A DNA stretch of 64,000 nucleotides from NCBI RefSeq assembly GCF_013376105.1, contig NZ_JAAMFM010000019.1:1-64000 (forward strand), read 5' to 3'. Both the position numbers and the translations under genes were made by a program. Shown one piece after another: positions 29,526 to 44,999 of the stretch. The notes below the pieces were generated by a model, which saw only the letters and a program-made list of their open reading frames with translations, had not been told where the DNA came from and ran no database searches. Position 1 is the first letter of the stretch; each line of letters starts with the position of its first letter. The stretch comes from Arthrobacter wenxiniae. Lineage in GTDB: Bacteria; Actinomycetota; Actinomycetes; Actinomycetales; Micrococcaceae.

Positions 29526-30830
29526 TCAACCGTTGCGGAACAGCTCCGCGATGTGGAGCCCGGCGCCCGGGCCCACCGCCTTGATGTGGAAGTCCTCCTC
29601 CAGCATCACCACCAGGTCCGGGCGGAAGGCGGGCGGGACCGTGACGTGGCCGTCAACGGTGACGAGCCCTTCCGCGGCCCAGCTCATGACGTTCCTGGCG
29701 AGGACGTACAGGTCCGGATGGACTGTTTCGGGTGACTCCAGGGCGTGGACCAGGGGGGCCGATTCGGGCGGGTTTTCGGTGGCGCATTCGGCCATGAAGG
29801 ATGCCATGTCCACGTGCCAGCCGCTGTAGCTGCCGGGATCGGATCCGGTCAGGGTGGAGATGAAGATGAATTGGCCCAGCACGTCCCGAAACACCTCCAC
29901 CCTGGATTCCTCCACTGCCAGGCGCTCGTGGAGGCGCGGCGCGACGACCGCGCGACCGGCGTCGATCCTGACCAGTCCAAGGCTGACCAGCAGGTGCCAG
30001 TAGAGCCTGATCCGGTCCAAGGCCCCCATCGTGAGCTCGGCGGTCGAGGCGGAGGACGTGAAGGCCCGCTCGAGCATCCCGGCCCCGTTGTGGGTGAGGG
30101 CCGCGGCAGCCTGGGCCCGGTCCGCCTTTCGCAGCGCTCCCTTGGTGGTGACCTTCCGGCCGCCGCCGACCCACTCCAGGAGCGACTCAACGTTCTTCCA
30201 GAGCGGAGATGCCGCGGCCGTGCCCGTGAACTGTTCGGCGGTCAGCTCCGGAATGTAGACATCGGCAAAGTCATAGTCCCCGGGGTCAACGGAATCGGCG
30301 TCGATGTCGCCGGCGTTTTCACGGATGTCGTCATCGTTGGCGGCGGCCAGCGGCGGCGCCAAGGCGTCGAGGGCGCGGTCCAGGCCCGGCCACGCCGGCT
30401 GCCCGAACAATTCCTGCAGTTGCGCCAGTTCGCCGGGGGTGCCCGTCCAAAGGGAGCCCTGGGCCAGGTAACCCACATAATCCCGGACGCCGCTGCGCAG
30501 CGCGAAGGTGGCCTGCGGATTGGCAGCGGTGGCCGCCTCCAGGACCTCCCTCACCGCATCGGGCACCAGCGACCTCGCATCGGTTTGGGGCTGAAGCAGG
30601 CGGTACAGGTCGAAGAAGTCGTCAAGGATCATCAGGCTCTTGTCGATGCCGGCGTCGCCGCGCCCCTGGGATTCCAGCCAGAGCGCAAATCCCGGTGCCA
30701 GCGCCTCCATGGCGCGGTCCAGCCGAACATCGTGCAGCGGCATGGCATTCGCCCGTCCCGCTGTGTCGGCGGCGGCCTTGGCCGGGTTGCCGAAACGCGA
30801 CTTTTTGGTGGACTTGGACTTCTTGGACAC
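29526..30830 (-). CDS. Uncharacterised 434-aa protein
   Basis: I do not recognise this protein. It starts with a Lys/Ser-rich basic tail (SKKSKSTKKSRFG). The rest appears soluble and mostly helical, with an acidic stretch near the middle (ANDDDIRENAGDIDAD). The C-terminal part contains FISTLTGSDPGSYSGW and a likely winged-helix-like segment (DRIRLYWHLLVSLGLVRID). No signal peptide or membrane segment is seen. The GTG at 30830 has AAGGA upstream and is preferred to an ATG 33 bp earlier. Codon bias matches the confident genes, so it is a real gene. It stands alone on its strand next to the decayed alcohol dehydrogenase. Confidence 0.75.
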   Translation of the reverse strand: MSKKSKSTKKSRFGNPAKAAADTAGRANAMPLHDVRLDRAMEALAPGFALWLESQGRGDAGIDKSLMILDDFFDLYRLLQPQTDARSLVPDAVREVLEAATAANPQATFALRSGVRDYVGYLAQGSLWTGTPGELAQLQELFGQPAWPGLDRALDALAPPLAAANDDDIRENAGDIDADSVDPGDYDFADVYIPELTAEQFTGTAAASPLWKNVESLLEWVGGGRKVTTKGALRKADRAQAAAALTHNGAGMLERAFTSSASTAELTMGALDRIRLYWHLLVSLGLVRIDAGRAVVAPRLHERLAVEESRVEVFRDVLGQFIFISTLTGSDPGSYSGWHVDMASFMAECATENPPESAPLVHALESPETVHPDLYVLARNVMSWAAEGLVTVDGHVTVPPAFRPDLVVMLEEDFHIKAVGPGAGLHIAELFRNG

Positions 30831-30942
30831 GGTATTCCTTGCCTGGGGCGGGAGACTTTCCACTCAACCGTAGCCGCAGGGAACCCGGGCCGCACCCTGA
30901 GGGGCCGCGCCTCCGCCATTGACTGGACGGCCGCCTGCCGGG

Positions 30943-31877
30943 CTACGTCTGGCTGAATCCCGTCAGGACGATCTTCCCGCCCCCGTGCCCGGACATGCTG
31001 GCTTGGAACGCGGCTGCTGCCTGCTCCATGGGGTAGGTGGCGGACACGTCGACGGTGAGGACGCCGGCGTCGACCATGGCGCCGAGCCGAGCCGGTCCAG
31101 CCCACCGGCGTCCGGTCGGACCCAGACGTAGCGGCCGCCATGTTCGGCGACGGCCGCGTCGGCAATCGAGACGTGGCGGCCGGTGGCCTTGAGCACGGCC
31201 AGCGTCGTCGCGAGCACGCCTCCGGCAAAGTCGGCCACGGCGTCCACGCCCCCGGGTGCCAGGGCGCGGACGCGGTCCGCCAGCCCCTCGCCGTACTCCA
31301 CCGGCTCGGCGCCGAGCTCGCGCAGGCGCGCATGGTTCTTGGCCGAGGCCGTGGCAATCACGCGGGCTCCGGCGTGGACGGCCAGCTGGATGGCCGTGCG
31401 GCCCACCCCGCCGGCGCCGTTGTGGATAAGCAGCGTCCCGCCCTCCGCGACCAGGAGGGCGTCCAGCGTCCGCAGGGCGGTCAGGCCGGTCAGTGGAAGC
31501 CCTGCGGCCTGCTCCCAGTCCAGCGCCGCCGGCTTGCGTGAGACCGCCGAGGCGGGCAGGGCGACCAGCTCGGCAAAGGTGCCTCCATGGACGGTGTCGC
31601 GGCGGCCGTAGGAGTAGACCTCGTCGCCCACCTCGAACTCCGGCGTGTCAAGGCCCACGGCCTCCACGACTCCGGCCACGTCCCAGCCGGGCACCACCGG
31701 AAAGGTCACGTCCATGATGGGATCCAGATAACCGGCCATGACCTTCCAGTCCACCGGGTTGACCCCTGCCGCCTTCACCCGGATCAGCACGGAGCCGGGG
31801 GAGACTTTTGGCACGGGCTGCCCGGTCTGTTCGAGGACTTCGGTGCCGCCGTAGCGTGCGTAGGTCATGGCCTTCAT
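30943..31877 (-). pseudogene. Zinc-free quinone-oxidoreductase-type alcohol dehydrogenase, frameshifted near the C-terminus
   Basis: The first 260 or so residues are a medium-chain dehydrogenase/reductase of the NADPH:quinone oxidoreductase branch. It has VKAAGVNPVDWKVMAGY, the nucleotide-binding motif LIHNGAGGVGRTAIQLA, and no catalytic zinc ligands. The start ATG at 31877 follows GGAG by 7 bp. At 31081-31090 the 5-bp unit GCCGA is present twice. Removing one copy restores a normal C-terminus (GAMVDAGVLTVDVSATYPM, then GGGKIVLTGFSQT) ending at 30943. As written, the frame instead runs into an unrelated 35-residue tail stopping at 30963. The protein may be misfolded. Confidence 0.8.
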
Positions 31878-32051
31878 GGTGGTTCTCCGCTTCTGCCGTT
31901 GGATTCTTCTCTCATTGGGCCAACCGCGGGCGGCACGGGATGATTCCCGTGCTGCCCTGCGCGGTGTCCACACCGTCCGGTGCGCATGGCACTGCCCTGC
32001 GCCATGGCCGCCACGGGCGTTGCGCGGGACGGGGCGGCTACGCTGAGGCCC

Positions 32052-32801
32052 ATGACCCTGCAACGCCACCCCTACGGCCCGGATCCGTCCCAGTGGGCGG
32101 AGCTGCACCTGCCACAGGAGCGCCGGCATGCCGGCGTGGTGGTGGTGATCCACGGCGGCTACTGGCGCAGCACGTATGGCGCCGAGCTCGGCGCCCCGCT
32201 GGCACGCGACCTCGCGGAGCACGGGGCTGCCGCCTGGAACCTCGAATACCGGCGCATGGGCAATGGCGGCGGCTGGCCCGAAACGTTCCTGGACGTGGCG
32301 GCCGGCATCGACGCCCTGGCCCCGGCCGCAGCGGACCACGGCCTGGACCTCGCCCGCGTGGCCGTAATCGGCCATTCGGCCGGCGGGCAGCTGGGCGTCT
32401 GGGCGGCCGGCCGGGCCGCCCTCCCGGCCACGGCGGTCGGCGGGGGCCCCGCGGTGGGGGTGTCCGGCGTCGTCAGCCAGTCGGGGCTGCTCAACCTGGC
32501 AGAGGCGCAGCGGCTGGGACTGAGCAACCACGCCGTGACGGCACTGCTGGGCAGCCACGTGGCGCTCGCGGACCCCGTGTCCGCCGTCCCGCTGCCCGTC
32601 CCCGTCTACGCCGTCCACGCGGAGGACGACGACGACGTCCCGGCCTCCCAGAGCCAAAGTTACGTTGACGCCGCGGTGGCGGCCGGCGGCGAGGCGGCGT
32701 TCATCGCCGTTCCCGGCGACCACTACAGCCTGATCGACCCGGCCAGCGCCGCCTGGGCCGTGTGCCGGGGCCTGGCGCTGGGACTGCTGGAGCGGGCGTA
32801 G
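32052..32801 (+). CDS. kynB: Arylformamidase / kynurenine formamidase-like alpha/beta hydrolase
   Basis: A 249-aa alpha/beta hydrolase. The HGGYW motif (VVVIHGGYWRSTYG) is typical of kynurenine formamidases. The nucleophile is in VIGHSAGGQLG, and the catalytic His is in PGDHYSLIDPAS. It would hydrolyse N-formylkynurenine to kynurenine and formate. The assignment rests on the HGGxW motif plus the adjacent tryptophan 2,3-dioxygenase, whose gene starts 35 bp later. The ATG at 32052 follows GAGG and replaces an ATG 72 bp upstream. Confidence 0.83.
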   Translation: MTLQRHPYGPDPSQWAELHLPQERRHAGVVVVIHGGYWRSTYGAELGAPLARDLAEHGAAAWNLEYRRMGNGGGWPETFLDVAAGIDALAPAAADHGLDLARVAVIGHSAGGQLGVWAAGRAALPATAVGGGPAVGVSGVVSQSGLLNLAEAQRLGLSNHAVTALLGSHVALADPVSAVPLPVPVYAVHAEDDDDVPASQSQSYVDAAVAAGGEAAFIAVPGDHYSLIDPASAAWAVCRGLALGLLERA

Positions 32802-32836
32802 TGTGTGTTCATACCGCTTTGTGAAGGGAAACGGCC

Positions 32837-33679
32837 GTGCCACAGAACACCCGCAAGATCGAGTCGGGCATTGAGACGGACTTCAGCGACAAGATGAGCT
32901 ACGGCAGCTACCTTGCGCTGGACACCCTGCTCAGCGCCCAGCAGCCCGTCAGCCGGCACCACGACGAAATGCTGTTCATCATCCAGCACCAGACCTCCGA
33001 GCTCTGGCTCAAGCTCATGCTGCACGAGCTGCGGGCCGTGCGCGTCCAGCTCGCCGCGGACAACCTGCGCGCCGCCATGAAGGGCGTGGCCCGGATCAAG
33101 CACATCCAGCGCTCGCTGACTGAACAGTGGAGCATCCTGGCCACGCTGACGCCCAGCGAATATGTGCAGTTCCGCGGGGACCTGGGCGCGGCGTCGGGCT
33201 TCCAGTCCTACCAGTACCGGGCCGTGGAGTTCATGCTGGGCAACAAGAACGCCGGCATGCTGAAGGTGTTTGACGCGAACCCGCCGGCGCGGGCCATGCT
33301 GGCCGTGATCCTGAAGCAGACCAGCATCTACGACGAATTCCTGGCCCTGCTGGCCCGGCGCGGCTTCGCCGTCCCCGCGGAGCTGCTGGCCCGGGACGTG
33401 ACCAAGGCGCACGTCTTCAACCCGGCCGTGGTGGAGGCCGTCCGCGTGGTGTACGAACAGCCGGACGACCACTGGGACCTCTACGAGGCCTGCGAGGAAC
33501 TGGTGGACCTGGAGGACAACTTCCAGCTGTGGCGCTTCCGGCACGTGGCCACCGTCAAACGGATCATCGGCATGAAGGCCGGCACGGGCGGATCCTCCGG
33601 CGTCGGCTTCCTGCAGCGGGCCCTGGACCTGACGTTCTTCCCCGAGCTGTACGCCGTCCGGACGGAGATCGGAAACTGA
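32837..33679 (+). CDS. kynA: Tryptophan 2,3-dioxygenase
   Basis: A 280-aa heme dioxygenase that opens the indole ring of L-tryptophan to N-formylkynurenine. Family segments include the N-terminal substrate region YGSYLALDTLL and HDEMLFIIQHQTSELW, the Arg-containing RGDLGAASGFQSYQYR, and the heme-ligand His in WRFRHVATVKRIIG. The C-terminal GGSSGVGFLQRAL lies in the substrate loop. GTG start with AAGGGAAA upstream. It follows the formamidase, so the pair covers the first two steps of the kynurenine route; no kynureninase gene is in the window. Confidence 0.95.
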   Translation: MPQNTRKIESGIETDFSDKMSYGSYLALDTLLSAQQPVSRHHDEMLFIIQHQTSELWLKLMLHELRAVRVQLAADNLRAAMKGVARIKHIQRSLTEQWSILATLTPSEYVQFRGDLGAASGFQSYQYRAVEFMLGNKNAGMLKVFDANPPARAMLAVILKQTSIYDEFLALLARRGFAVPAELLARDVTKAHVFNPAVVEAVRVVYEQPDDHWDLYEACEELVDLEDNFQLWRFRHVATVKRIIGMKAGTGGSSGVGFLQRALDLTFFPELYAVRTEIGN

Positions 33680-33776
33680 TTCAGCCCTGGGGTGTGCCTA
33701 TGCTGGAGGGGCCGGACCCGCGGCCCCGCCCCGGACCTGGCAACTCGCTACCGAATTTCGAGGCAAGGATTCAACC

Positions 33777-34352
33777 ATGACGAGTTGGCGCGATTCACTG
33801 AACATCTGGGGACCGGCCTGGGCGGCCATCCGCGACGTGGAGGATCCCGCCGCCGAGCAGATCCTCGCCTGGCCCGTGGGTGCCGGCGCGATCGCCGCCG
33901 GCAGCGCCATGCACCTGGTGACGGAGGACGCGGCGGCCGCGCGCGAGTTCGCCGCAGCGGCGCGCCTCACCGAAACCGGCGCCGCCGTCCTGCTCTGCGC
34001 GCCGACCGACGACCTTGACCTGGTCCCCCACATGCCGCCCGAGACGAACCTCGCCGAGGTGCCGCTGGAGAACTACGACGCCGTTGAGGTCGCCTTGTTC
34101 GACCGCCCGGTGGCGGGCGGACGCGTCAAGGTGGCGGACGGACTGGCCGTCCTGGGCGCGCTGCACGTGGATCCGGAGGGGGCGGGGATGGAAGCCGAGC
34201 TGGAGTCCGTCATGATTGCCTCGCTGGGCGAGGAGGCGTTCCTGCACGGCGCCGACGTCCTGTATTTGGTGGCCGCTTCCGCGCAGGCCGCACGGCTTGC
34301 CGCCGTTGAGGGCTGGACCCAGGTGGCGGAGGTCCTCAGCTTCAAGAAATAG
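33777..34352 (+). CDS. GNAT-like protein of unknown function
   Basis: A 191-aa protein. The second half has an acetyltransferase-like layout: a beta-strand-rich stretch (GRVKVADGLAVLGALHVDP), a helix, then GADVLYLVAASAQAARLAAVEGWTQVAEVL. The last stretch resembles the end of GNAT domains, where a residue row and a final strand bind acetyl-CoA and substrate. The usual pyrophosphate loop is not obvious, so the enzyme may be divergent. It stands between kynA and a degenerate gene and has its own possible terminator. Confidence 0.55.
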   Translation: MTSWRDSLNIWGPAWAAIRDVEDPAAEQILAWPVGAGAIAAGSAMHLVTEDAAAAREFAAAARLTETGAAVLLCAPTDDLDLVPHMPPETNLAEVPLENYDAVEVALFDRPVAGGRVKVADGLAVLGALHVDPEGAGMEAELESVMIASLGEEAFLHGADVLYLVAASAQAARLAAVEGWTQVAEVLSFKK

Positions 34353-34356
34353 CTGT

Positions 34357-34397
34357 CCGGGGGGGCCCGCGGGGGACCCGGTTCCGGGGCCCCCGGG
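34357..34397 (+). terminator. Imperfect GC-rich hairpin
   Basis: A run of C and G from 34357 can pair with the complementary run ending at 34397 (CCGGGGG...GGCCC against GGGGCCCCCGGG), with a small bulge. It begins 5 bp after the stop of the GNAT-like gene. Confidence 0.4.
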
Positions 34398-34509
34398 CGA
34401 AAATACCTTGAGCCTGCGCCCCGCCAGCTTCTCCCGGCGCGGCGGCCTGCAACCACCGTGGGTAATACAGCTAGGCTGACGTGGCACGCAAGCGAAGTCC
34501 ACGCAAGTA

Positions 34510-34939
34510 GTGGTGAGCGAGAAATGGCAGGACGCGCCACGGCCCGACGGCTATGAGAAGCAGCTGGGCGAGCGCGACGACGGCTGGCTGGTGCGCACGA
34601 CGCCGCTGGCCGAGGGACTTCAGGTGCACCGTGAACGCGCCGGCGCGCCCGCTTATCGCCGGCTGCATCAAGCCGCGGCCGAACACGTCGGAGGAGGAGC
34701 GCCGGGACCATGCCGCTTCTTCCATGCTCACCTGCGCGTTGGGCTGCGACGCCCTGTACGAGTGGGGTTACATCGTCGTTGACGCCGGGGGAAAGATCCG
34801 CGCCGGCCAGCCCGCCGAGACCGGGCGGATCGAGGACGCCGTGAACAGGCTGGTGGGGCGCAACTGCACCGCGTTCAATGAACAGACCGCGGCGTGCTTC
34901 GGTGAAAATCAAAGGCTCATGTTGCCGCAGCAGCCGTAG
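34510..34939 (+). pseudogene. Frameshifted small conserved protein of unknown family
   Basis: Two frames with strong G/C third-position bias follow one another. The first (GTG at 34510) encodes VVSEKWQDAPRPDGYEKQL and DDGWLVRTTPLAEG. From about 34615 the downstream frame continues with RCTVNAPARPLIAGCIKP, then CALGCDALYEWGYIVVD and ends QRLMLPQQP at the stop near 34939. One base missing in the GGGA run at 34614-34617 would explain the break. The restored protein would have about 143 aa with several Cys residues (RCTV, AGCIK, LTCALGCD, GRNC). I cannot name its family. Confidence 0.6.
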
Positions 34940-35098
34940 GCGGGATCCCGCCGGCTCCGTCGGACGGGCCGCCCGGCACGGCATGGCAGAATTGGTGGTG
35001 GCCCGGGTGCAGACGGGCCCAGTGATAATACAGCCGGCCGCCACCTCATGCGGGGGCGGCTGGGCGAACCACTTACAACCGATTTGAGACTGCCTGCC

Positions 35099-35836
35099 AT
35101 GCCTTCGCTGCAAAACAATGCCACCACCCCCGAAACCGGCGCCACTGCCGGGGCTGCGGCCGCCCCCCAAGCCGGCCCCCGCTTTGCCGACGTCGGAAGC
35201 CGGTACTACGGCATCCTGCTGGCGAGCATGGCCGTGATCGTCATCCTCTCCAACATTGGCGCCTCCAAGGGTGTCCTTTTTGGGCCGATCGTGACCGACG
35301 GCGGCTTCTTCCTGTTCCCGTTCGCCTACATCCTGGGCGACGTGATCAGCGAAATTTACGGTTTCAAGATGGCGCGCAAGGCCATCTTCACCACGTTCGC
35401 GCTGTCCATTTTTGCGTCGCTGAGCTACTGGGTGATCATCGCGCTGCCCGGCTTCACCGACGACTACGGCGTGGCCAAGCAGCACGCCCTGGTGGACGCC
35501 CTTGGCCCGGTCCCGCAGATCGTGCTGGCCAGCCTGCTCGCGTTCCTGGCCGGACAGACCATCAACTCGCTCATCATGGTCCGGCTCAAGGCCCGCCAGG
35601 GGGAACGGAAACTGTGGATGCGCCTCATGGGCTCCAGCGGCGTGGGTGAATTCATCGACACGCTCATCTTCTGCACGATTGCCGCGCCGGTCATCGGCAT
35701 AGTCGGCTTTGGCATGTTCGCCAACTACGTGCTCGTGGGATTCCTGTACAAGGTGGGCGTGCAATACCTGCTGGTCCCCGTCACCACCCTGGCGATCGGC
35801 TGGTTCAAGCGGCACGAACCGACATACGCCGTCTGA
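35099..35836 (+). CDS. Queuosine-precursor transporter (YhhQ/VUT family)
   Basis: A 245-aa membrane protein with about six helices. The family features include the early LSNIGASKGVLFGPIV, the charged FAYILGDVISEIYGFKMARKA, and VGEFIDTLIFCTIAA near the end. YhhQ proteins import preQ0, preQ1 or queuine for tRNA modification. A tgt gene lies 2.8 kb away with altered substrate residues, which supports salvage. The ATG at 35099 is chosen because the earlier in-frame ATG at 35048 would add only basic residues. The N-terminal 45 residues are Thr/Ala-rich and unlikely to be structured. Confidence 0.88.
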   Translation: MPSLQNNATTPETGATAGAAAAPQAGPRFADVGSRYYGILLASMAVIVILSNIGASKGVLFGPIVTDGGFFLFPFAYILGDVISEIYGFKMARKAIFTTFALSIFASLSYWVIIALPGFTDDYGVAKQHALVDALGPVPQIVLASLLAFLAGQTINSLIMVRLKARQGERKLWMRLMGSSGVGEFIDTLIFCTIAAPVIGIVGFGMFANYVLVGFLYKVGVQYLLVPVTTLAIGWFKRHEPTYAV

Positions 35837-35852
35837 CGCTGCCAGTGCAGGC

Positions 35853-35899
35853 GGAGCCCTGCGGGGAAAGCGCAGCGCCACGCCTCCCCGCAGGGCTCC
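35853..35899. terminator. Strong hairpin between convergent genes
   Basis: A perfect 15-bp stem (GGAGCCCTGCGGGGA at 35853-35867, complement at 35885-35899) surrounds a 17-nt loop. It lies between the stops of the YhhQ gene and the leftward membrane-protein gene and can serve both directions. Confidence 0.8.
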
Positions 35900-35923
35900 C
35901 GCCGGCCGGGCCGGCGGCCCCCG

Positions 35924-36670
35924 CTATGAACCGTCCACCTCGAAGAGGGACCGGTGCGTCGGCATCGCCCGGCCCGGGGCCGCCGCCGGCGCGGCAGGCG
36001 CTGCATCCCTCGCCCGCAGCGCCAGCCCCATGGGCACGAACGTCGCCAACAGCGCCGCCGCCCCCACCAGGGTGGGCACCGGCCCGCCCATGAAGTTCGT
36101 GACGATGAACGCCACGGCTGCCACGGGGACCCACACGGGCACGGCCCTGGCCATCCGCAGTCCCAGTGCCAGCAGCAGCGTCCCGAACGTCAGGCCCGCC
36201 AGAAACACCCACAGCAGCACGGATCCCAGCACATAGCCGTCCTCGGCCGCGACCAGTTGTTCAACGGCGTCCGCCGGCAGCCCGCTGTCCGCTGCCGAGC
36301 CAAGGACGCCAAAGAACAAGGCAAAGTGCCCCACCCCGACGGCCATGCCAACGGCCAGCAGCAGCGAGCCCAGCGCGGCCAGCACGCGGGCGGGCCGTGG
36401 CGTGCGGGTCCCGGCCGCCGCTTTCGAGCCGGGCAGCGCTCCGGCCGCCAGGAGTCCCGGGATCCACAGGACAGGGCCGGCAATGGCCAGTGCCGCAGCC
36501 AGCAGCCACAGGCCGGGGCCGCCGGAGACCATGGCCAGCGTGTCAGCAAAGCTGCCGTCCCCAGGCTGGTTCACGAGGGCCAGAAGGTTGCCGGCCACCA
36601 GCGTGGCCGTTCCCGCCAGCAGGCTGGCGCAGGCAACGTTTCGGCTAAGCCAGGAAATGTTCATCGTCAT
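35924..36670 (-). CDS. Integral membrane protein of unknown function
   Basis: A 248-aa protein with about seven hydrophobic segments (for example ACASLLAGTATLVAGNLLAL, LWLLAAALAIAGPVLW, VLAALGSLLLAVGMAVGVG and VWVPVAAVAFIVTNFMGG). The C-terminus is a short Ala/Pro-rich soluble tail. No enzymatic motif is apparent. It is divergent from a histidine kinase/response regulator pair with about 150 bp between starts, so it is a plausible target of that two-component system. Two close ATGs (36670 and 36664) both fit the GGAAAGG box; the first is used. Confidence 0.7.
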   Translation of the reverse strand: MTMNISWLSRNVACASLLAGTATLVAGNLLALVNQPGDGSFADTLAMVSGGPGLWLLAAALAIAGPVLWIPGLLAAGALPGSKAAAGTRTPRPARVLAALGSLLLAVGMAVGVGHFALFFGVLGSAADSGLPADAVEQLVAAEDGYVLGSVLLWVFLAGLTFGTLLLALGLRMARAVPVWVPVAAVAFIVTNFMGGPVPTLVGAAALLATFVPMGLALRARDAAPAAPAAAPGRAMPTHRSLFEVDGS

Positions 36671-36818
36671 TGACCTTTCCATCAAATGCTCGGAGATTTG
36701 ACCTTCAGGATGACCCCGGTGCCCGGCCCGCGGCGTCCGCACTGCGGGCTAAATCGCGGCTTCGTTGTCCGCCAAAAGGGGGACGACGGCGGCCCCGCCG
36801 AGGTCCTAGGATGAGGGC

Positions 36819-37976
36819 ATGGCAGGCAGGCTGGCAGTGTGGCGGAACGCCCGGCCGGGAGGCTTTCCGGTCCCGGACGTGGCACTGGCCGCGCTCCTGT
36901 TCGTGATCGCCGTGGCGTCCGCCGCCACCGGGCGACCCGATGAGGGGCCGCTGGTAATCACCGTTCCGGCCGCCGTTGCCATGACGGCCCCGCTCGCCTG
37001 GCGGCGCAAGATCCCGCTGCTTCCCGCCCTGGCCGGTGCCGCCGCAAACCTCTTCCAGGGCTGGCTGGCAGAAACGCCCGGGTCGCTGTGGTCGCTGGTG
37101 GTGTTCGCCGTCGCCATGTACTCGGTGGCGGCTTGGAGTTCCGAAGGTTTCGCGGCCGTGGGCGGCGCCGTGCTGCTGGCTGCCCTGCTGGGAGGGGAAT
37201 GGCTGGCGCGCGGACCCGACTACCTGTTCATCGTCCTGGTCTTTGGCGGCATTTGGCTGCTGGGACGCGCCGGCCGCCTCTGGCGCAGCCGCCTGACATT
37301 CCAGCAGCTGCACGAACGCGATGCCGCCCGCCTGGCCGTGGCCGAAGAACGACTTCGCATTGCCCGCGAACTTCACGACGTGCTTGGCCACAGCATGAGC
37401 GTGATTGCCGTGCAGGCCGACGCCGCCGGCGCCGCGCTGGACAGCGTGCCCGATCTTGCCCGCGGGCCATTGCGCGTCATCCATTCCACGGCCAGGGGAT
37501 CGCTCGCCGAGATCCGCGCCATGCTTGACGTTCTGCGCGGTGAGGACGGCGGGGCCGCGCCCGGCCTCAGCCAGCTCGGGCCACTCCTGGACGGCAACGC
37601 GCTGGCCGGGCTGCCTGTGACACAACGGATCTCCGCGGATCTGCCGACCCTGGAACCGGCCGCGGACCTGGCCCTCTACCGGGTGGTGCAGGAGTCCCTG
37701 ACGAATGTCCTCAAGCATGCCGGCATGATCCCGACCAGCGTGTCCGTGCAGCGTGTGGGCGGCGGGGTGGAGGCAGAGATCCGCAACGCGCCGGGCAATG
37801 TACGCGCCGGGGGTCCAGGCAGCGGCTATGGCCTGCAGGGCCTGCGCGAGCGGATGCAGCTGGCGGGTGGAACGCTCGATGCCGGTCCCCTGGACGACGG
37901 CGGCTGGCGGGTTTGCGCGCGCATCCCCGGCCCGGGGTCTCCGCCCCGCGGCGCCGTGGGAGGGGAGGGCAGGTGA
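36819..37976 (+). CDS. Sensor histidine kinase (NarL/DesK-type)
   Basis: A 385-aa membrane kinase. The N-terminal part has about five membrane segments and no large external domain, so it probably senses a membrane or intramembrane signal. The dimerisation domain holds the phosphorylated His in RIARELHDVLGHSMS. The ATP-binding domain has the N-box-like NVLKHAGM and GYGLQGLRERM. The start ATG follows GAGG. Its stop overlaps the regulator start as GTGA, so the two proteins are made together. The divergent membrane-protein gene is a possible target. Confidence 0.9.
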   Translation: MAGRLAVWRNARPGGFPVPDVALAALLFVIAVASAATGRPDEGPLVITVPAAVAMTAPLAWRRKIPLLPALAGAAANLFQGWLAETPGSLWSLVVFAVAMYSVAAWSSEGFAAVGGAVLLAALLGGEWLARGPDYLFIVLVFGGIWLLGRAGRLWRSRLTFQQLHERDAARLAVAEERLRIARELHDVLGHSMSVIAVQADAAGAALDSVPDLARGPLRVIHSTARGSLAEIRAMLDVLRGEDGGAAPGLSQLGPLLDGNALAGLPVTQRISADLPTLEPAADLALYRVVQESLTNVLKHAGMIPTSVSVQRVGGGVEAEIRNAPGNVRAGGPGSGYGLQGLRERMQLAGGTLDAGPLDDGGWRVCARIPGPGSPPRGAVGGEGR

Positions 37977-38677
37977 CGACCGTCGTGCTCGTGGATGACC
38001 AGCAGCTGATTCGGGACGGGTTCAAGCTGATGCTCAACCTGGAACCGGACCTTGAGGTGGTGGGTGAGGCGGGCGACGGGAAGGCGGCACTGGCGCTGAC
38101 GGCGCAACTGCATCCCGACGTCGTCCTTATGGACATCCGGATGCCGGTCATGGACGGTCTGGAGGCCGTCCGGAGGCTTGCCGCGGCGCACACCGCGGCC
38201 GCCATTCTGGTCCTGACCACCTTTGACTTGGATGAATATGTTTTTCAGGCCCTGCGCGACGGGGCCCGCGGCTTCCTCCTGAAGGACGCGCCCAGGGAGC
38301 AACTGGTCCACGCCGTCCGGGCGGTCGCGGCTGGGGAGTCGCTGCTGGCGCCGGCCATCACCCGGCGCTTGATTGAGCGGTATGTGCGCCGGCCCGCACC
38401 CGGCTCCGCACCCGGTCTGCCGGCGGTCCTGACCGGGCGGGAGCAAACGGTGCTGCGGCTGCTCGCGGGCGGGCTTTCCAACGCCGAAATCGCCGCGGAC
38501 CTGGTGGTGGGCGAGGCCACGGTAAAGACGCATGTGGCCCGGCTCCTGGCCAAGCTGGGTGTCCGGGACCGCGTGCAGGCCGTCATTGCAGCCTACGAGA
38601 GCGGCTTTGTGGAGCCGGGACAGGAGCCCCTGCGGCCTACCGGTTCGGGTAGTAGCGCCGGAGCGTCTCGGCCTTGA
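37973..38677 (+). CDS. LuxR/NarL-family response regulator
   Basis: A 234-aa regulator. The receiver domain has acidic residues VLVDDQQLIRDG, the phospho-accepting Asp in VVLMDIRMPVMDG and Lys in GFLLKDAPREQ. A C-terminal LuxR helix-turn-helix follows (LTGREQTVLRLLAGG, NAEIAADLVVGEATVKTHV). The GTG at 37973 overlaps the kinase stop. Its last 41 bp overlap the convergent tgt gene, which is unusual; the final 15 residues (rich in Gly and Ser) are dispensable-looking. Confidence 0.92.
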   Translation: MTTVVLVDDQQLIRDGFKLMLNLEPDLEVVGEAGDGKAALALTAQLHPDVVLMDIRMPVMDGLEAVRRLAAAHTAAAILVLTTFDLDEYVFQALRDGARGFLLKDAPREQLVHAVRAVAAGESLLAPAITRRLIERYVRRPAPGSAPGLPAVLTGREQTVLRLLAGGLSNAEIAADLVVGEATVKTHVARLLAKLGVRDRVQAVIAAYESGFVEPGQEPLRPTGSGSSAGASRP

Positions 38678-39992
38678 AGTCGAAGAACGTGCCGTCCTCG
38701 ATGGCGAGCCGGGCGTCGTCGACCATCTTCACCACAAAGCGCTCGTTGTGGATGGACACCAGGGTCGCGGACACCATCTCCCTGGCCTTGAACAGGTGGT
38801 GGATGTAGGCGCGACTGTAGTTGGCGCACGCGTAGCAGTCGCAGCCGTCCACGAGGGGCGCGAAGTCACGCTTGAAGCGGGCGCCGGACAGGTTGAACCG
38901 GCCGTCCGGGGTGTAAAACGCCGAGGTGCGGGCCACGCGCGTGGGGGAGACGCAGTCAAAGGTGTCCGCCCCGTTTTCGATGGCCGTGAAAATGTCATCG
39001 GGTTCGGAGATGCCCAATAGGTGGCGCGGCCTGTCCTCCGGCAGTTCCTCCGCGCACCAGCGCACAATGGTGCCGAGGTTTTCCTTCTCCAGCGCCCCGC
39101 CGATCCCGTAGCCGTCGAAGTTCATGGCGCCCAGGTCGCGGGAGGCCTTCCGGCGCAGGTCCTCGTACTGGGCGCCCTGGATCACGCCAAAAAGTGCCTG
39201 GTAGGGCTTGCCGAGGCGTTCCTCCGTGAGCCGGAAGTGCTCCTCGATGCAGCGTTCGGCCCACAGCCGGGTCCGCTCCAGGGACATCTCCTGGTAGGCG
39301 CGGGAGTTCAACAGCGTGGTCAGCTCGTCAAAGGCAAACATGATGTCCGCCCCGATCTGGTGCTGCACCTGCATCGACACCTCGGGGGTGAAGCGGTGCA
39401 TGTCCCCGTTCAGGTGCGACTTGAACCAGACGCCGTCGTCGTCGATGTGGGCCAGCCGCTCCTTGCCCACGGCCACGGAGTCGTCGGCGCCGGCGTGCCG
39501 TGAGGCGGCCGCCGCGTCCATGTTGATGACCTTCTTGAAGCCGGAGCCCAGGCTCATGACCTGGAATCCGCCGGAGTCGGTGAACGTGGGGCCCTGCCAG
39601 TTCATGAACGCGCCGAGTCCGCCGGCTGCGTCGAGGATGTCCGCGCCGGGCTGCAGGTACAGGTGGTAGGCGTTGGCCAGCAGCGCCTGGGCGCCGAGCT
39701 CCTTCATGGATTCCGGCAGCACCGACTTCACGGTGGCCTTGGTGCCGACGGCGATGAACGCCGGCGTCCTGATGGTCCCGTGCGGGGTGGTGATGACCCC
39801 CGTCCGCCCCTGGAACGTGCCCCCGTTAAGTTCGGCGGCGGCGCCCGACGGCGCGCAGCGCCCACCCAGCCGGGTGGTCACCTGGAAACCGAACCCGCCC
39901 TGCGTCGCGGGCCGGCCGGGAACTCCAAGGGGGGCGGCGGGGGCGGTGGTGAGGAGGTCCGCGGCGGGATCGGGGGAAGGCATGGGATCCAT
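38637..39992 (-). CDS. tgt: tRNA-guanine transglycosylase (probable queuine/preQ1 base exchange)
   Basis: A 451-aa enzyme that swaps guanine 34 of GUN-anticodon tRNAs for a queuosine precursor. It has the general acid Asp in FTDSGGFQVMS, the nucleophile Asp in ADTFDCVSPTRVAR, and the zinc site CDCYACANYSRAYIHHL. The base-binding motif reads FDELT where preQ1-using bacterial enzymes have DECT: the Cys is replaced by Leu, and the GGLAVGE segment reads GGALEKEN. This suggests a different base, perhaps queuine, taken up by the nearby YhhQ transporter. The start is uncertain; ATG 39992 is used, as the extended frame to 40220 crosses the divergent promoter region. Confidence 0.88.
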   Translation of the reverse strand: MDPMPSPDPAADLLTTAPAAPLGVPGRPATQGGFGFQVTTRLGGRCAPSGAAAELNGGTFQGRTGVITTPHGTIRTPAFIAVGTKATVKSVLPESMKELGAQALLANAYHLYLQPGADILDAAGGLGAFMNWQGPTFTDSGGFQVMSLGSGFKKVINMDAAAASRHAGADDSVAVGKERLAHIDDDGVWFKSHLNGDMHRFTPEVSMQVQHQIGADIMFAFDELTTLLNSRAYQEMSLERTRLWAERCIEEHFRLTEERLGKPYQALFGVIQGAQYEDLRRKASRDLGAMNFDGYGIGGALEKENLGTIVRWCAEELPEDRPRHLLGISEPDDIFTAIENGADTFDCVSPTRVARTSAFYTPDGRFNLSGARFKRDFAPLVDGCDCYACANYSRAYIHHLFKAREMVSATLVSIHNERFVVKMVDDARLAIEDGTFFDFKAETLRRYYPNR

Positions 39993-40115
39993 TTTGCCAG
40001 TGTTTGCGCCCCGCCCCGTCCGGCCTGCGAAACAGCAGTGGGGGATCGGCGCGGGGATTGTCCCAAATTTCTGTGGGAATGTGAGCGGCGACACGGGAAA
40101 ATACTTTCGCCAATA

Positions 40116-40129
40116 ACCTACCGGTCGGT
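40116..40129. promoter_or_regulatory. Palindromic operator upstream of the DUF3311/SSS pair
   Basis: ACCTACCGGTCGGT matches its reverse complement at 12 of 14 positions and shares the CGGTCGGT arm with the site at 22019-22036. It lies about 70 bp before the DUF3311 start in the gap shared with tgt. A TetR-family protein encoded elsewhere is the likely ligand. Confidence 0.5.
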
Positions 40130-40196
40130 CGTTGGGAGTCCTTACCATGAACGAGTCAGGAAAATTCGAGGACTGCCGAGCCCAAAGGAGCCGCAC

Positions 40197-40505
40197 ATGT
40201 CCGCAGCGAACGTCACCCACGATTCCCCCACGAGGGGTCCGGCGAAACCCATGCCGTACGTCATCAGCGGCATTCTTCTGGCGGCGGCCATCATCCTGCC
40301 GCTACTGGTGCCCCTCTACGCCAAGGCCGGCCCCCACCTGTTCGGCTTTCCCTTCTTCTACTGGTACCAGATGATGTGGGTGCCCATTTGCGCCATCCTC
40401 ATCGGCGCCTCCTACTGGCTGGTGACGGCCGAGGACAAGCGCCGCCGGGCAGCCGTCAACCAGGCCGTCCGGGGCAAGCACGACGCCGGGGGTGAGGCGA
40501 AGTGA
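40197..40505 (+). CDS. DUF3311 membrane protein (accessory of the SSS symporter)
   Basis: A 102-aa protein with two membrane helices (YVISGILLAAAIILPLLVPL and WVPICAILIGASYWLVT) joined by a short loop with PFFYWYQMMW. DUF3311 proteins are regularly encoded directly upstream of MctP-type monocarboxylate symporters. ATG 40197 has AAAGGAG 6 bp upstream. The stop overlaps the symporter GTG as GTGA. Confidence 0.88.
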   Translation: MSAANVTHDSPTRGPAKPMPYVISGILLAAAIILPLLVPLYAKAGPHLFGFPFFYWYQMMWVPICAILIGASYWLVTAEDKRRRAAVNQAVRGKHDAGGEAK

Positions 40506-42214
40506 GCGCCGCACCCGGCACCCTGGCGGGTGCACTGGCCACCGCCCCGGCGGCGACCCGGGGCGTGGACGTGACGGCGCTCGTCGTCGTCGTCGTCCTG
40601 TTTGTCCTGGTGGGTGTCATGGGATTCTACGCCGCGCGCTGGCGCGGGGGCGGCACGGACGGGCTGCACTCGCTGGATGAATGGGGACTGGGCGGGCGCA
40701 AGTTCGGCTCCTGGATCACCTGGTTCCTGCTGGGCGGGGACCTCTACACGGCATACACCTTCGTGGCGGTGCCGGCGGCCATGTGGGCGGCCGGGTCGGT
40801 GAGCGGCTTCTTCGCCGTCCCGTACACGATCGTGCTGTACCCGATCGTGTTCCTGCTGATGGCCCGGCTGTGGTCCGTGTCCAAGCGGCACGGCTTCGTC
40901 ACCACGGCCGACTTTGTGGGCGGGCGCTACGGCAGCAGGCCGCTGTCGCTGGCCATCGCCCTGACCGGCATCATCGCCACCATGCCCTACATTGCGCTGC
41001 AGCTGGTCGGCATCAAGTCCGTGTTGACGGTGCTGGGCGTGGGGAGCCCCGGCAACTGGTTCCTCAACGACCTGCCGCTCATCGTGGCGTTTGTGGTGCT
41101 CGCCGCGTACACCTACACCTCGGGGTTGCGCGCCCCGGCCATGATCGCCGTCGTCAAGGACGTGCTGATCTACCTCGCCGTGATTGTGGCCATCATCTAC
41201 CTGCCCTCCAAGTTCGGCGGCTGGGACCACATCTTCGGTGCCGCCCAGGAAAAGATGACCACCGTGAACCCTGCCACCGGCAAGGTCCCCGGGCCGTTCA
41301 TCCCCGGCGCGGACAGCTACGCGGCCTACGCGACACTGGCGCTCGGCTCGGCCATGGCCCTGTTCATGTACCCGCATTCGATCACCGGTGTGCTCGCCAC
41401 CAAAAGCCGCAACACGATCCGCAAGAACGCCGCCGTGCTGCCGCTGTACTCCCTGGTGCTGGGATTCCTTGCGCTGCTGGGTTACGTCGCCATCGCCGCC
41501 GGGACCCGCCCGGTGGAGCTTAACGGCACGACCATCAACCCGCAGCTGGTGGTCCCGCAGCTGTTCCTGGACAACTTCCCGTCCTGGTTCGCGGGGGTGG
41601 CCCTGGCAGCCATCGCCGTCGGGGCACTCGTGCCGGCCGCCATCATGTCCATTGCGGCCGCCAACCTGTTCACCCGCAACATCTACCGGGACTTCTTCGT
41701 GAAGGACGCCACGCCGCGGCAGGAGGCCAAGGTTTCCAAGCTGGCCTCCCTCGTGGTGAAGTTCGGCGCGTTGATCTTTGTGATCGGCCTGGACGCGTCG
41801 GCGGCCATCAACATGCAGCTGCTGGGCGGGATCTGGATCCTGCAGACGTTCCCCGCGATCGTGGCCGGACTCTACACGCGCTGGTTTCACAAGTGGGCCC
41901 TGTTTGCCGGCTGGGCCGTGGGCATCGTCTACGGCACGTGGACCGCGTACAGCGTGGTCAACCCCGTCACGCACGCGCACTTTGGCGGGTCCATCGCGGC
42001 CATTCCCGGCACCAGCACCAAGGTCTACATCGCCATCACGGCGTTTGTGCTCAACGCGGTGGTGGCCGCTGTGCTGACCCTCATCCTGCGGGCGGCCAAG
42101 GTGCCCGACGGCAAGGACATCACGAAGGCGTCCGATTTCGGGGCCAACGAGGACGACCCCGAGGTGACGGCCTTCGCCGCCAGGTCCGTGGACACGACGG
42201 GCCCGGTGGTCTAG
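40502..42214 (+). CDS. Sodium:solute symporter, MctP-like (monocarboxylate uptake)
   Basis: A 570-aa 13-helix LeuT-fold transporter of the SSS family. It has the N-terminal substrate region EWGLGGRKFGSWITWFLLGGDLYTAYTF, the helix-1 break, and ALVPAAIMSIAAANLFTRNIYRDFF near helix 9. MctP relatives take up lactate, pyruvate or alanine with sodium ions or protons. The GTG start overlaps DUF3311. The stop codon TAG lies inside a 15-nt tandem repeat (42206-42250), so the 3' end has been duplicated. Confidence 0.92.
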   Translation: MSAAPGTLAGALATAPAATRGVDVTALVVVVVLFVLVGVMGFYAARWRGGGTDGLHSLDEWGLGGRKFGSWITWFLLGGDLYTAYTFVAVPAAMWAAGSVSGFFAVPYTIVLYPIVFLLMARLWSVSKRHGFVTTADFVGGRYGSRPLSLAIALTGIIATMPYIALQLVGIKSVLTVLGVGSPGNWFLNDLPLIVAFVVLAAYTYTSGLRAPAMIAVVKDVLIYLAVIVAIIYLPSKFGGWDHIFGAAQEKMTTVNPATGKVPGPFIPGADSYAAYATLALGSAMALFMYPHSITGVLATKSRNTIRKNAAVLPLYSLVLGFLALLGYVAIAAGTRPVELNGTTINPQLVVPQLFLDNFPSWFAGVALAAIAVGALVPAAIMSIAAANLFTRNIYRDFFVKDATPRQEAKVSKLASLVVKFGALIFVIGLDASAAINMQLLGGIWILQTFPAIVAGLYTRWFHKWALFAGWAVGIVYGTWTAYSVVNPVTHAHFGGSIAAIPGTSTKVYIAITAFVLNAVVAAVLTLILRAAKVPDGKDITKASDFGANEDDPEVTAFAARSVDTTGPVV

Positions 42215-42250
42215 GCCGGCGCGGTCTGGGCCGGCGTGGTCTGGGCCGGT
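42206..42250. repeat. 15-nt tandem repeat across the symporter stop codon
   Basis: Three units of 15 nt read GTGGTCTAGGCCGGC, GCGGTCTGGGCCGGC and GTGGTCTGGGCCGGT. The first holds the stop codon TAG; in later units the same codon is TGG. A slipped-strand duplication of the gene's end is the likely origin. Confidence 0.6.
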
Positions 42251-42277
42251 GGTCCAGACCAGCCGGGGCCCGGGCGG

Positions 42278-42994
42278 CTACGCGTCCGGGTAGTGGGTCT
42301 CCATGAACGTGTCCCACTGGGCGCCAATGCTGTCCAGGGCGGCGGCGCCCAGCCCAAACGTGGAGGCGAGGACCTGGGCGCCGGGATGTTCGCGCAGCCC
42401 TTCGACGCGGGGCCGCCGGGCCAGGATGAGCAGGCCGTCGCCATGCTCCGCGTAGTCCGCCACAGTCAGCCCCAGCTGGGTGTCGGTGCGGTACCAGACC
42501 TTGCCGCTGAGGGTGGCGCCCGTGGTGAGCGTGAGCTTGTAAGGTTCGCCGGGGTCCGGGAGCCAGCCGGTGTCAATGCCCAGCGCGTCCCACAGCTTGG
42601 TGTGGGCGGCGCTTGTTCCGTCCGCGTAGACCGTGCGGCGGGGCGTGTGCGGGTGGCGCTCCAGCTTGAACTTGAGCTGCTGGATGAACATGCACCAGCC
42701 CTCGGTGATGTCGTCGTCATACTTGGCCCATTCGCCGGTGGTCGTCCCGCGCGTCATGGTCAACAGGGTGCCGTCCGGGCGGGGCTCGAGCGTGAAGGCG
42801 TCGCCCCTGCTCATGTCCAGGCGGAGGTGGTCGGCACTTTCCTTGACGTTGTCGTAGTAGATCTGCCGGATCTCGTCGTCGAGCCCCTCCGTTTGCCAGC
42901 CGTGCCACTCGGCAATCCGGGCCGGTTCGCGCAGCATGAGCCACACCTGTTCCGCGTCGGCATTGATAAGGACTGAGAGCTGGGCAGTGTCCAT
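42278..42994 (-). CDS. SRPBCC-domain (START-like) protein
   Basis: A 238-aa protein. The N-terminal half has the SRPBCC ligand-binding fold common in AHSA1-like proteins (LINADAEQVWLMLREPARIAEWHGW, then TLEPRPDGTLLTMTRG and the helix ITEGWCMFIQQLKFKLERHP). A second similar half follows. It probably binds a hydrophobic ligand or assists folding; the ligand is unknown. A small convergent gap separates it from the symporter. Confidence 0.8.
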   Translation of the reverse strand: MDTAQLSVLINADAEQVWLMLREPARIAEWHGWQTEGLDDEIRQIYYDNVKESADHLRLDMSRGDAFTLEPRPDGTLLTMTRGTTTGEWAKYDDDITEGWCMFIQQLKFKLERHPHTPRRTVYADGTSAAHTKLWDALGIDTGWLPDPGEPYKLTLTTGATLSGKVWYRTDTQLGLTVADYAEHGDGLLILARRPRVEGLREHPGAQVLASTFGLGAAALDSIGAQWDTFMETHYPDA

Positions 42995-43048
42995 GGAACG
43001 TAATCTACGCCGCTTCCGCGGAACGGGCCAGCTTCCCGCCCCGGGGGA

Positions 43049-43588
43049 CTACCTCCCGAGGCCGGCGTACGAGATGGCCTGGCGGACCAGGGCCCCGCGG
43101 CCGCCCACGAACTCCGCCTGCACCCCGGGGCTGAGCACTTCCTCCGGCGTCATCCAGGTCAGTTCCAGGGCGTCCTGCCGCGGCTCGCACTCGCCGGTCA
43201 CCGGAATGACATAGGCCAGGGCGACGGCGTGCTGGCGCTCGTCGGTGAAGCCGGTCTGTGACGGCGAGGGCAGGTATTCGGCCACCGTGAACGGCACGGG
43301 GCTGACGGGCAGCTGCGGGAAGGCCAGCGGGCCCAGGTCCTTTTCAATGTGCCGGATCAGCGCGGCCCGGATGGTTTCGCGGTACAGGACGCGTCCGGAG
43401 ACCAGGGTGCGGACCATGCTGCCGTTTTCGTCTGCCTGCAGCAGCAGGCCCACCTCGTTGACGTAGCCCAGCGGGTCCAGGCGCACCGGCACGGCCTCCA
43501 CATAGACCATGGGAAGCCGGTTCCTGGCCTCGTACAGGTCCTCGTCGGACAGCCAGCCGGGATTCGGATCAGGAGTGCGGACGCTCAT
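43049..43588 (-). CDS. DUF4916 protein (NUDIX-like)
   Basis: A 179-aa protein of the DUF4916 family, related to NUDIX hydrolases. It starts NPGWLSDEDLYEARNRLP, has VEAVPVRLDPLGYVNEVGLLL and YRETIRAALIRHIEKDLG where NUDIX proteins carry the box helix, and ends PEEVLSPGVQAEF. The canonical metal-binding glutamates of the NUDIX box are not clearly visible, so activity is uncertain. It stands alone on its strand. Confidence 0.75.
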   Translation of the reverse strand: MSVRTPDPNPGWLSDEDLYEARNRLPMVYVEAVPVRLDPLGYVNEVGLLLQADENGSMVRTLVSGRVLYRETIRAALIRHIEKDLGPLAFPQLPVSPVPFTVAEYLPSPSQTGFTDERQHAVALAYVIPVTGECEPRQDALELTWMTPEEVLSPGVQAEFVGGRGALVRQAISYAGLGR

Positions 43589-43668
43589 GTAACAGTTCTA
43601 CCCCATGAACGCCCCCTGAACGCCCCCTGCATGCGCCCACATGCATGCGCCCCCGGCGTCCGGGAGGG

Positions 43669-44337
43669 TCAAGCACCTCCGGCCGCCCCGACGTGCAGGA
43701 CGGTTCCGCCGGGTGCCTGCACGGCGAAGCCGCCGCCACAGGCCGTAGCGGGCACCCCCGCCGCGGCGAGCAGGGCACCCAGGTCCGCCGGGCCGCCGTC
43801 GTACGCCAGGGCAAGCGCGACGCCGGACACCTCGCCGTGGCGGACCTCCACCAGCCCGCCGTTCCTGGCCCTGAACGGGCTGCGCCCGTCCGCGTCCGGC
43901 GGGCCGGGGCGGGCGCCAATGTCCGCCAGCACCTTCCGGGCGGCGGCCACGTCGGGCGTGTGCCACTGCTGGACCACCGACAGGGGGCCGGGCCGCCGGG
44001 GCGCGAGGTCCGCGACCGGGTCGGCCAGGAAGCTGAAGCCGTCCGGCGCCGTGACCCGGGCGGCGGGGCCGCGGCCGGCCTCGAGCAGTTCGGCCAGCGT
44101 GCCGTCGGCCAGGGTGCGGCGGACAAAGATCCCGCGGTCCCGGATTTCAAAGCCGAGCTGGACGGTGCCGTCCTCCGCGCTGCCCGCGGCCGCCCGGTGC
44201 AGGCCCACCTTGCCGTCGCCGGAGTCAAACACGAGCCAGTCGCCATGGTTTTCCGTGCACGCCAGGCCAAGGGCCGTCAGCAGCGAGGCATGGTCCTCCG
44301 GCCTGGAGGTGAAGACGATGGGGCGCACTCGCAGCAT
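43669..44337 (-). CDS. VOC/glyoxalase-family protein
   Basis: A 222-aa protein built from two betaalphabetabetabeta modules of the vicinal-oxygen-chelate superfamily. Module one covers RPIVFTSRPEDHASLLTALGL to DGTLAELL; module two begins VQQWHTPDVAAARKVLADIG. Canonical metal ligands are only partly present, so it may be a binding or resistance protein, not a glyoxalase. It is divergent from the YdeI-like gene with a 52-bp gap, which must hold both promoters. Confidence 0.75.
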   Translation of the reverse strand: MLRVRPIVFTSRPEDHASLLTALGLACTENHGDWLVFDSGDGKVGLHRAAAGSAEDGTVQLGFEIRDRGIFVRRTLADGTLAELLEAGRGPAARVTAPDGFSFLADPVADLAPRRPGPLSVVQQWHTPDVAAARKVLADIGARPGPPDADGRSPFRARNGGLVEVRHGEVSGVALALAYDGGPADLGALLAAAGVPATACGGGFAVQAPGGTVLHVGAAGGA

Positions 44338-44389
44338 TTTTTCTCCGACGTTGGTGGTGCCCCCACGCTACCAACGTTAGGGTATTGCC

Positions 44390-44977
44390 ATGATCGAGCT
44401 GCCCGAACTGCTGGTGCCGGATGCGGCGGCCTGGCGGGCGTGGCTGGCGGACAACCACGGGTCGAGCCCGGGCGTCCGGCTGGTGCTGCACAAGAAGGGC
44501 GGCGCCGTCACGGAGCTGGACTACGCCGCCGCGCTTGACCAGGCGCTCTGCTACGGCTGGATCGACGGCGTCATCGGCAGGCGCGACGCCGGCAGCTACC
44601 TCACGCGGTTCACGCCGCGGACACGGACCAGCAAGTGGTCGGGCAACAACGTGCGCAACATTGAGCGGCTCGCCGCGGCCGGGCTGCTGGAGCCGGCGGG
44701 GCAGGCCGCCGTCGACGCGGCCAAGGCGGACGGGCGCTGGGAGGCCGCCTACGCCAGCCAGTCTGAAGCGGCGCTTCCCCCGGACCTGGCCGACGCGATA
44801 GCCGCCAATCCGCAGGCCCAGGCCATGTTTGCAGTGCTGACGGCCGTCAACCGCTACGCCTTGATTTACCGCACCACTTCGGTGAAGACCCCGGCCGCCC
44901 GGGCCGCGAAGATCGCCCGCATTGTCCAGATGCTGGCGGCCGGACAGACCCCGTACCCGCAAAAGCGCCGCCCCTGA
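44390..44977 (+). CDS. YdeI/OmpD-associated family protein
   Basis: A 195-aa protein. Its N-terminal half has the YdeI signature (WLADNHGSSPGVRLVLHKK, YAAALDQALCYGWIDGVIG, and TPRTRTSKWSGNNVRN), and the C-terminal half is a helical repeat (LPPDLADAIAANPQAQAMF). The family has been linked to bacteriocin or peptide resistance, but no enzymatic mechanism is established. Short distance to the divergent VOC gene. Confidence 0.85.
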   Translation: MIELPELLVPDAAAWRAWLADNHGSSPGVRLVLHKKGGAVTELDYAAALDQALCYGWIDGVIGRRDAGSYLTRFTPRTRTSKWSGNNVRNIERLAAAGLLEPAGQAAVDAAKADGRWEAAYASQSEAALPPDLADAIAANPQAQAMFAVLTAVNRYALIYRTTSVKTPAARAAKIARIVQMLAAGQTPYPQKRRP

Positions 44978-44999
44978 GCAGCCGCGCGCCGGACGCGGG

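Follow-up and report, generated by a model that had tools for sequence, protein, structure and literature searches.

The tgt-yhhQ locus

The window analysed here, a 64,000-nucleotide stretch of Arthrobacter wenxiniae (bases 1-64000 of contig C11 of a 4.33 Mb source assembly in 88 contigs, rated 100% complete), carries a gene for a tRNA-guanine(34) transglycosylase (Tgt) and, tail to tail with it, a gene for a transporter of the YhhQ/QPTR family (Table 1). The pair is a candidate system for direct salvage of queuine, and its Tgt has a base-pocket loop and an insert that set it apart from the canonical bacterial enzyme. The start of Tgt was taken as the ATG at 39992; the open reading frame extends upstream to 40220.

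Table 1. Features of the tgt-yhhQ locus, in positions of the window
Feature	Positions	Strand	Evidence
Tgt, tRNA-guanine(34) transglycosylase, shortened-loop form, 451 residues	38637-39992	-	TIGR00430, 411.3 bits
DSGGFQ, holds one catalytic Asp	39561-39578	-	Invariant in alignments A1 and A2
Insert-bearing stretch after DSGGFQVMSLG, 42 residues up to DDGVWF	39444-39545	-	Alignments; low model confidence
DELT, place of Cys158 of Zymomonas mobilis Tgt	39318-39329	-	Alignment
GGALEKEN, pocket loop 3 residues shorter than canonical GGLSVGE	39078-39101	-	Alignments
FDCV, holds second catalytic Asp	38949-38960	-	Invariant in alignments A1 and A2
CDCYAC, zinc-site cysteines	38826-38843	-	Alignment
YhhQ/QPTR-family queuosine-precursor transporter, 245 residues, substrate predicted	35099-35836	+	TIGR00697, 97.6 bits

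The window Tgt exceeds the cut-off of the curated NCBIfam model TIGR00430 (411.3 against 306.75 bits), and among named relatives Arthrobacter species come closest, at 83-84% identity (first three loci listed). Its catalytic Asp residues and zinc site are intact (DSGGFQ, FDCV, CDCYAC and the aligned His391 of alignment A1); the two Asp residues correspond to Asp102 and Asp280 in Z. mobilis numbering. A first-pass annotation, made from the letters alone, had described a Tgt with these residues intact and a non-canonical base pocket, and this description holds. A structure model has the Tgt fold (mean predicted local distance difference test, pLDDT, 88.3; predicted template modelling score 0.89), with Z. 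mobilis Tgt as its best fold match in the PDB (37% identity, template modelling score 0.81) and human QTRT1 absent among the 50 PDB matches listed. In a score comparison Z. mobilis Tgt reached 302 bits and human QTRT1 218.7 bits.

The distinguishing features lie in the pocket loop and behind DSGGFQ. Canonical preQ1-type enzymes have a GG[L][SA]VGE loop and no insert, whereas the window Tgt has GGALEKE and an insert. The first-pass annotation had read GGALEKEN as replacing GGLAVGE; the motif is there, but in the alignments the loop is three residues shorter and there is no one-for-one exchange. This shorter loop always occurs together with some 20-40 additional residues behind DSGGFQ, a feature that the annotation had not mentioned, and we refer to the combination as the window form. 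In the window Tgt the stretch from DSGGFQVMSL to DDGVWF spans 42 residues, compared with 11-14 in canonical rows, and the insert is poorly determined in the model (within the 427-residue construct, residues 121-150 have pLDDT block means of 46, 47 and 60).

Among 263 aligned rows, which are loci rather than genomes and include some repeats (WIN/L001, L035/L055, L036/L052; L240, repeating L100, was dropped), the insert stretch is at least 30 residues in all 115 window-form and 9 sister-form rows and at most 14 in 135 canonical rows; four rows were left unclassed (L115, L236, L237, L262). The sister form (L106-L113, L218) combines an insert with a GG[STN]LG loop, and the eight of its members from Actinomycetota are in genomes with no QueA match. 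The loop of the queuine-inserting chlamydial Tgt probably resembles this sister form (type 2) and not the window form.

We rejected DELT, which the first-pass annotation had set against DECT, as a mark of specificity. It is present, but Cys occupies the position in 32 of the 115 window-form rows (31 DECT, 1 DECV), and Leu occurs there in two of the 135 canonical rows (DELT in L079, DHLV in L131). The zinc-site cysteines, kept by the window Tgt, are missing in six window-form Tgts from outside the genus (L029, L030, L114, L177, L186, L187).

The transporter scores above the cut-off of the queuosine-precursor transporter family TIGR00697 (97.6 against 50.95 bits) and of Pfam Vut_1 (154.5, cut-off 27.2). 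Against PRK11212.1, the equivalog of Escherichia coli YhhQ, it falls far below the cut-off (43.1 bits, cut-off 252), as do three more actinobacterial YhhQ proteins (55.3-62.7 bits).

Queuosine genes in the genome and its relatives

We compared gene content across 58 genomes, namely the source genome and its relatives, 23 of them from the genus with our own included. In 14 named genomes that served as controls, matches were obtained in 9 for QueA, 7 for QueG, 8 for QueF and 12 for QueC. The first-pass annotation had relied on the lack of further que genes in the window, which by itself could not show absence from the genome. The absence does extend to the whole assembly for QueA, QueG, QueF and QueC (QueD, QueE and QueH were not searched for): the genome search that the annotation had proposed for queA, queG and queF gave no match, and no complete pathway with queA was found. 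Thus, tgt is present while queA and queG are absent from the genome, which is the gene content of direct queuine salvage; the indirect route through QueK/QueL, known from Clostridioides difficile, does not fit, given that QueA and QueG are absent.

The relatives share this pattern. QueA was found in none of the 23 genus genomes and in one of the 58 overall, a genome with no Tgt, so that QueA is absent from all 43 genomes with Tgt. QueG and QueF were each found in none of the 58, and QueC in none above the cut-off, with weak sub-threshold matches in five that do not include our own. YhhQ is present in 40 genomes, all 40 of which have Tgt, and the 15 genomes lacking Tgt all lack YhhQ (Fisher test, p 3e-11, overstated in that genomes were treated as independent).

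In all 23 genus genomes tgt and yhhQ are convergent on one contig. Their matched domains are separated by less than 1 kb in 18 and by 2.8-6.6 kb in five, the window included; the 2.8 kb given by the first-pass annotation is correct. The idea that the pairing or the motif is peculiar to this genome was rejected, as the pairing is found in 23 of 23 genus genomes and every one of the 43 Tgts in the 58 genomes is of the window form. That tgt is a relic, or serves a purpose other than tRNA position 34, is a reading we hold to be extremely unlikely. The loss of zinc cysteines in the six Tgts noted above would speak for it, but the window Tgt retains its catalytic and zinc residues and passes the cut-off of the G34 model, and the gene is present in all 23 genus genomes, paired with a queuosine-precursor transporter.

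Tgt form and QueA across the phylum

Of 296 genomes sampled from the phylum, 197 have a match for QueA and 176 one for Tgt; 154 have both and 22 Tgt only. We read the Tgts of 88 of the 154 (66 were not read). These comprise 29 of the 30 loci with the highest scores, the remaining one lying in a genome without a QueA match (G453), together with 20 low-scoring ones and 39 others, among them two with scores in the non-canonical range (G274, G441). The canonical GGxxVGE loop is present in 87 of these QueA-bearing genomes and GGLSFGE in one (L262); none has an insert. The 22 Tgt-only genomes comprise ten with the window form, eight with the sister form (here GG[ST]LG with an insert), two with a canonical Tgt, one too divergent to class (G148) and one fragment (G255, a 42-residue frame), the last two being left out before counting. 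Window or sister forms therefore make up 18 of 20 classable Tgts of QueA-less genomes and none of the 88 read from QueA-bearing genomes (Fisher test, p 1e-18, again overstated by treating genomes as independent). Contigs of a viral collection held eight tgt loci, six with the canonical loop (L230-L235) and two too short to class.

Both the loop and the insert show strong conservation among window-form Tgts, which suggests a defined substrate. This bears on the possibility that the enzyme is of broad or other specificity, accepting queuine and preQ1 or another 7-deazaguanine according to what the community supplies. With a shortened loop the pocket could be looser, and Bartonella henselae proteins take preQ1, and queuine at high concentration, according to the text of PMC11570991; given the conservation, we regard this reading as very unlikely.

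A quick tree was built from 130 rows. One of its branches separates the window form from the other rows (Shimodaira-Hasegawa-like approximate likelihood ratio test, SH-aLRT, 99), and a second separates both non-canonical forms, taken together, from the rest (SH-aLRT 96). The window form also occurs on contigs labelled Patescibacteria (L178, L181-L185, L187), and in Longicatena caecimuris of the Bacillota (L194) a short-loop Tgt with an adjoining YhhQ forms a long branch inside the group, tgt having possibly been acquired there by transfer. This spread over Patescibacteria and one member of the Bacillota marks the window form as an old branch of the Tgt family, and the tie of the form to QueA absence may rest on few events.

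A further 43 of the 296 genomes match QueA but not Tgt (for example G039, G074, G120, G136 and G208). In those looked at, the QueA matches are far weaker than for QueA beside Tgt (E ~1e-42 to 1e-76), and the QueA-like protein there may therefore have another role. Several of these genomes are large and come from a single genus (f37 g55), which we guess to be Streptomyces. The lack of Tgt in Streptomyces is reported in the text of PMC9262613.

GluQRS near tgt

GluQRS acts on the cyclopentenediol of queuosine. It attaches glutamate to the queuosine of tRNA-Asp (PMC3542578). In 20 genomes without a QueA match we surveyed the surroundings of tgt, taking flanks of some 17 kb, and found GluQRS in seven (G044, G059, G086, G103, G171, G182, G236), each of them scoring above the curated cut-offs for both NF004315 and TIGR03838. 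By tblastn, GluQRS was found in 9 of 40 named window-form loci, many of which have flanks truncated at a contig end; all six that were scanned passed. A strict signature pattern had given none in the window or in the initial set of loci, most of them 4 kb long, where flanks are short; tblastn found GluQRS at the edges of two such loci (L069, L114) and in longer flanks. GluQRS beside tgt in QueA-less genomes would imply finished queuosine there and so supports direct queuine insertion in those genomes; for the family of the window this evidence is indirect.

These findings bear on the most serious rival to direct queuine use, in which preQ1 is both the imported and the final base: the transporter would carry preQ1 or preQ0 and Tgt would leave preQ1 at position 34, as proposed for B. 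henselae. Bartonella has Tgt and QPTR with no QueA, QueG or QueH and trace preQ1 in its tRNA (PMC11570991, main text), and the bifidobacterial-type Tgts we saw (L143, L145, L174, L175) belong to the window form. However, the Bartonella Tgt retains GGLAVG, which the window Tgt does not, and the seven of 20 QueA-less genomes with GluQRS near a window-form Tgt point to finished queuosine there. Additionally, with QueF and QueC absent too, preQ1 would itself have to be imported. We therefore judge preQ1 use to be rather unlikely here, though it is a rival to be taken seriously.

Gene neighbourhood

Between yhhQ and tgt (35924-38677) lie an open reading frame with no Pfam match and a two-component system (histidine kinase and response regulator). 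The region is flanked by genes for a tryptophan 2,3-dioxygenase (32837-33679) and a sodium:solute symporter (40502-42214). An Rfam scan of 30000-45000 gave no match at the gathering score, and thus no preQ1 riboswitch there; no tRNA genes were found in the window.

Discussion

We consider it likely that this organism is a queuine scavenger whose Tgt uses queuine directly; by its gene content it appears unable to make queuine itself. The YhhQ-family protein would import a precursor of queuosine, with queuine the likeliest one. Tgt would then put queuine directly in the place of guanine 34 in GUN-anticodon tRNAs, which would make the QueA/QueG step unnecessary and leave the tRNA with queuosine. 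In published structures Val233 of the pocket loop is the obstruction to queuine (main texts of PMC3660597 and PMC6165067), and we infer that the shortened loop would remove this obstruction of the canonical bacterial Tgt, opening the pocket to the cyclopentenediol of queuine. Direct import and insertion bypassing QueA/QueG had been proposed by the first-pass annotation, and the proposal is strengthened by gene content, by the relation of Tgt form to QueA and by GluQRS in 7 of 20 QueA-less genomes. The marks on which it was built fared less well: some proved mistaken or non-specific, the motif is the usual one in this group of actinobacteria, and the bases handled by enzyme and transporter are predicted ones.

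A number of observations count against direct queuine salvage or narrow its evidence. The usual queuine-type pocket is GG[LS][AS]G, by the text of PMC11570991, in which a Nakamurella Tgt was modelled; the window pocket, GGALEK, lacks this signature, and the loop as a whole fits neither it nor that of preQ1 enzymes. Three of 43 relatives have Tgt without YhhQ (G028, G038, G054). The queuine-releasing queuosine nucleosidase Qng1 (PF10343), which would be expected in a salvager of the nucleoside, was found in none of the 58 genomes, by a model that also matched none of the 14 controls. Two genomes without a QueA match carry a canonical Tgt (G433 and G453, 91 and 89% complete), and their QueA may be missing from an incomplete assembly. 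GluQRS was missing from 13 of the 20 surveyed flanks, and none was found in the window or in the same-family flanks taken, the rest of our own genome not having been searched. Moreover, the link between Tgt form and QueA absence may rest on few events, one or two. Finally, the HlyIII transporter of Bifidobacterium breve has been tested and carries preQ1 and preQ0, and preQ1 insertion has been suggested for that species (PMC11130926, main text).

By gene content, this is an ordinary actinobacterial queuine-salvage pair, and the route is already published as a prediction for most Actinomycetota. In the text of PMC11130926, tgt-only Actinomycetota are predicted to salvage queuine; PMC10570037 defines a tgt-only class likewise and PMC6593275 lists it as a pathway variant, so far as their texts go. 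The window has the same gene content as the tgt-only Actinomycetota and is a further case of this prediction, whereas the short loop, the insert and GluQRS near tgt are not described in the text of PMC11130926, its figures and supplements aside. More generally, we found no description in the literature text of an insert coupled to a short loop, or of GluQRS near tgt in QueA-less actinobacteria; figures and supplements were outside this scope, and Fig. 3 of PMC11570991 may show the motif.

Other systems resemble that of the window in part. Chlamydia trachomatis likewise has a bacterial Tgt and a QPTR/YhhQ transporter with no QueA or QueG (PMC11570991, main text); direct insertion was tested there, whereas for the window it is predicted, and Chlamydia is a host-associated parasite, unlike the free-living lineage here. 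B. henselae is alike in having Tgt and QPTR without QueA and QueG (same text) and differs in its GGLAVG loop, where the window Tgt has GGALEK and an insert. Human QTRT1 (6H42, 6H45, 7NQ4) inserts queuine directly, as the window Tgt would, and also lacks the Val233 side chain (PMC6165067, main text), but through Gly at that place and not through a deletion. The preQ1 enzymes of Z. mobilis and E. coli share the fold, catalytic Asp residues and zinc site with the window Tgt, but have a GGLAVGE loop and no insert.

The Tgts of B. boum (L175) and UBA2724 (L174), and two that group with them (L143, L145), have the short loop and the insert. The text of PMC11130926 suggests preQ1 insertion by a canonical bacterial Tgt in B. 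breve and calls for further experiments. Going by loop and insert, the label 'canonical' does not fit these four bifidobacterial-type enzymes, B. breve itself not being among them.

A wider proposal, towards which we lean only slightly, is that a separate and possibly single-origin branch of Tgt, found in Actinomycetota, some Patescibacteria and a few others, became queuine-inserting through a coupled change, in which the Val233 loop lost residues and some 20-40 were gained next to the DSGGFQ strand, and not through the eukaryotic change of Val to Gly. Free-living actinobacteria would then consume queuine as eukaryotes do, GluQRS would act at a later step in some of them, and the Tgt of bifidobacteria would differ from the canonical preQ1 enzyme that it has been taken for. 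If this is true, it could be read from sequence which base a large set of actinobacterial Tgts uses, and the choice between preQ1 and queuosine as the endpoint in queA-less actinobacteria such as B. breve, left open in print, would become testable. These bacteria would be consumers of a micronutrient needed by eukaryotic hosts, and their Tgt would offer a natural queuine pocket constructed unlike the human one.

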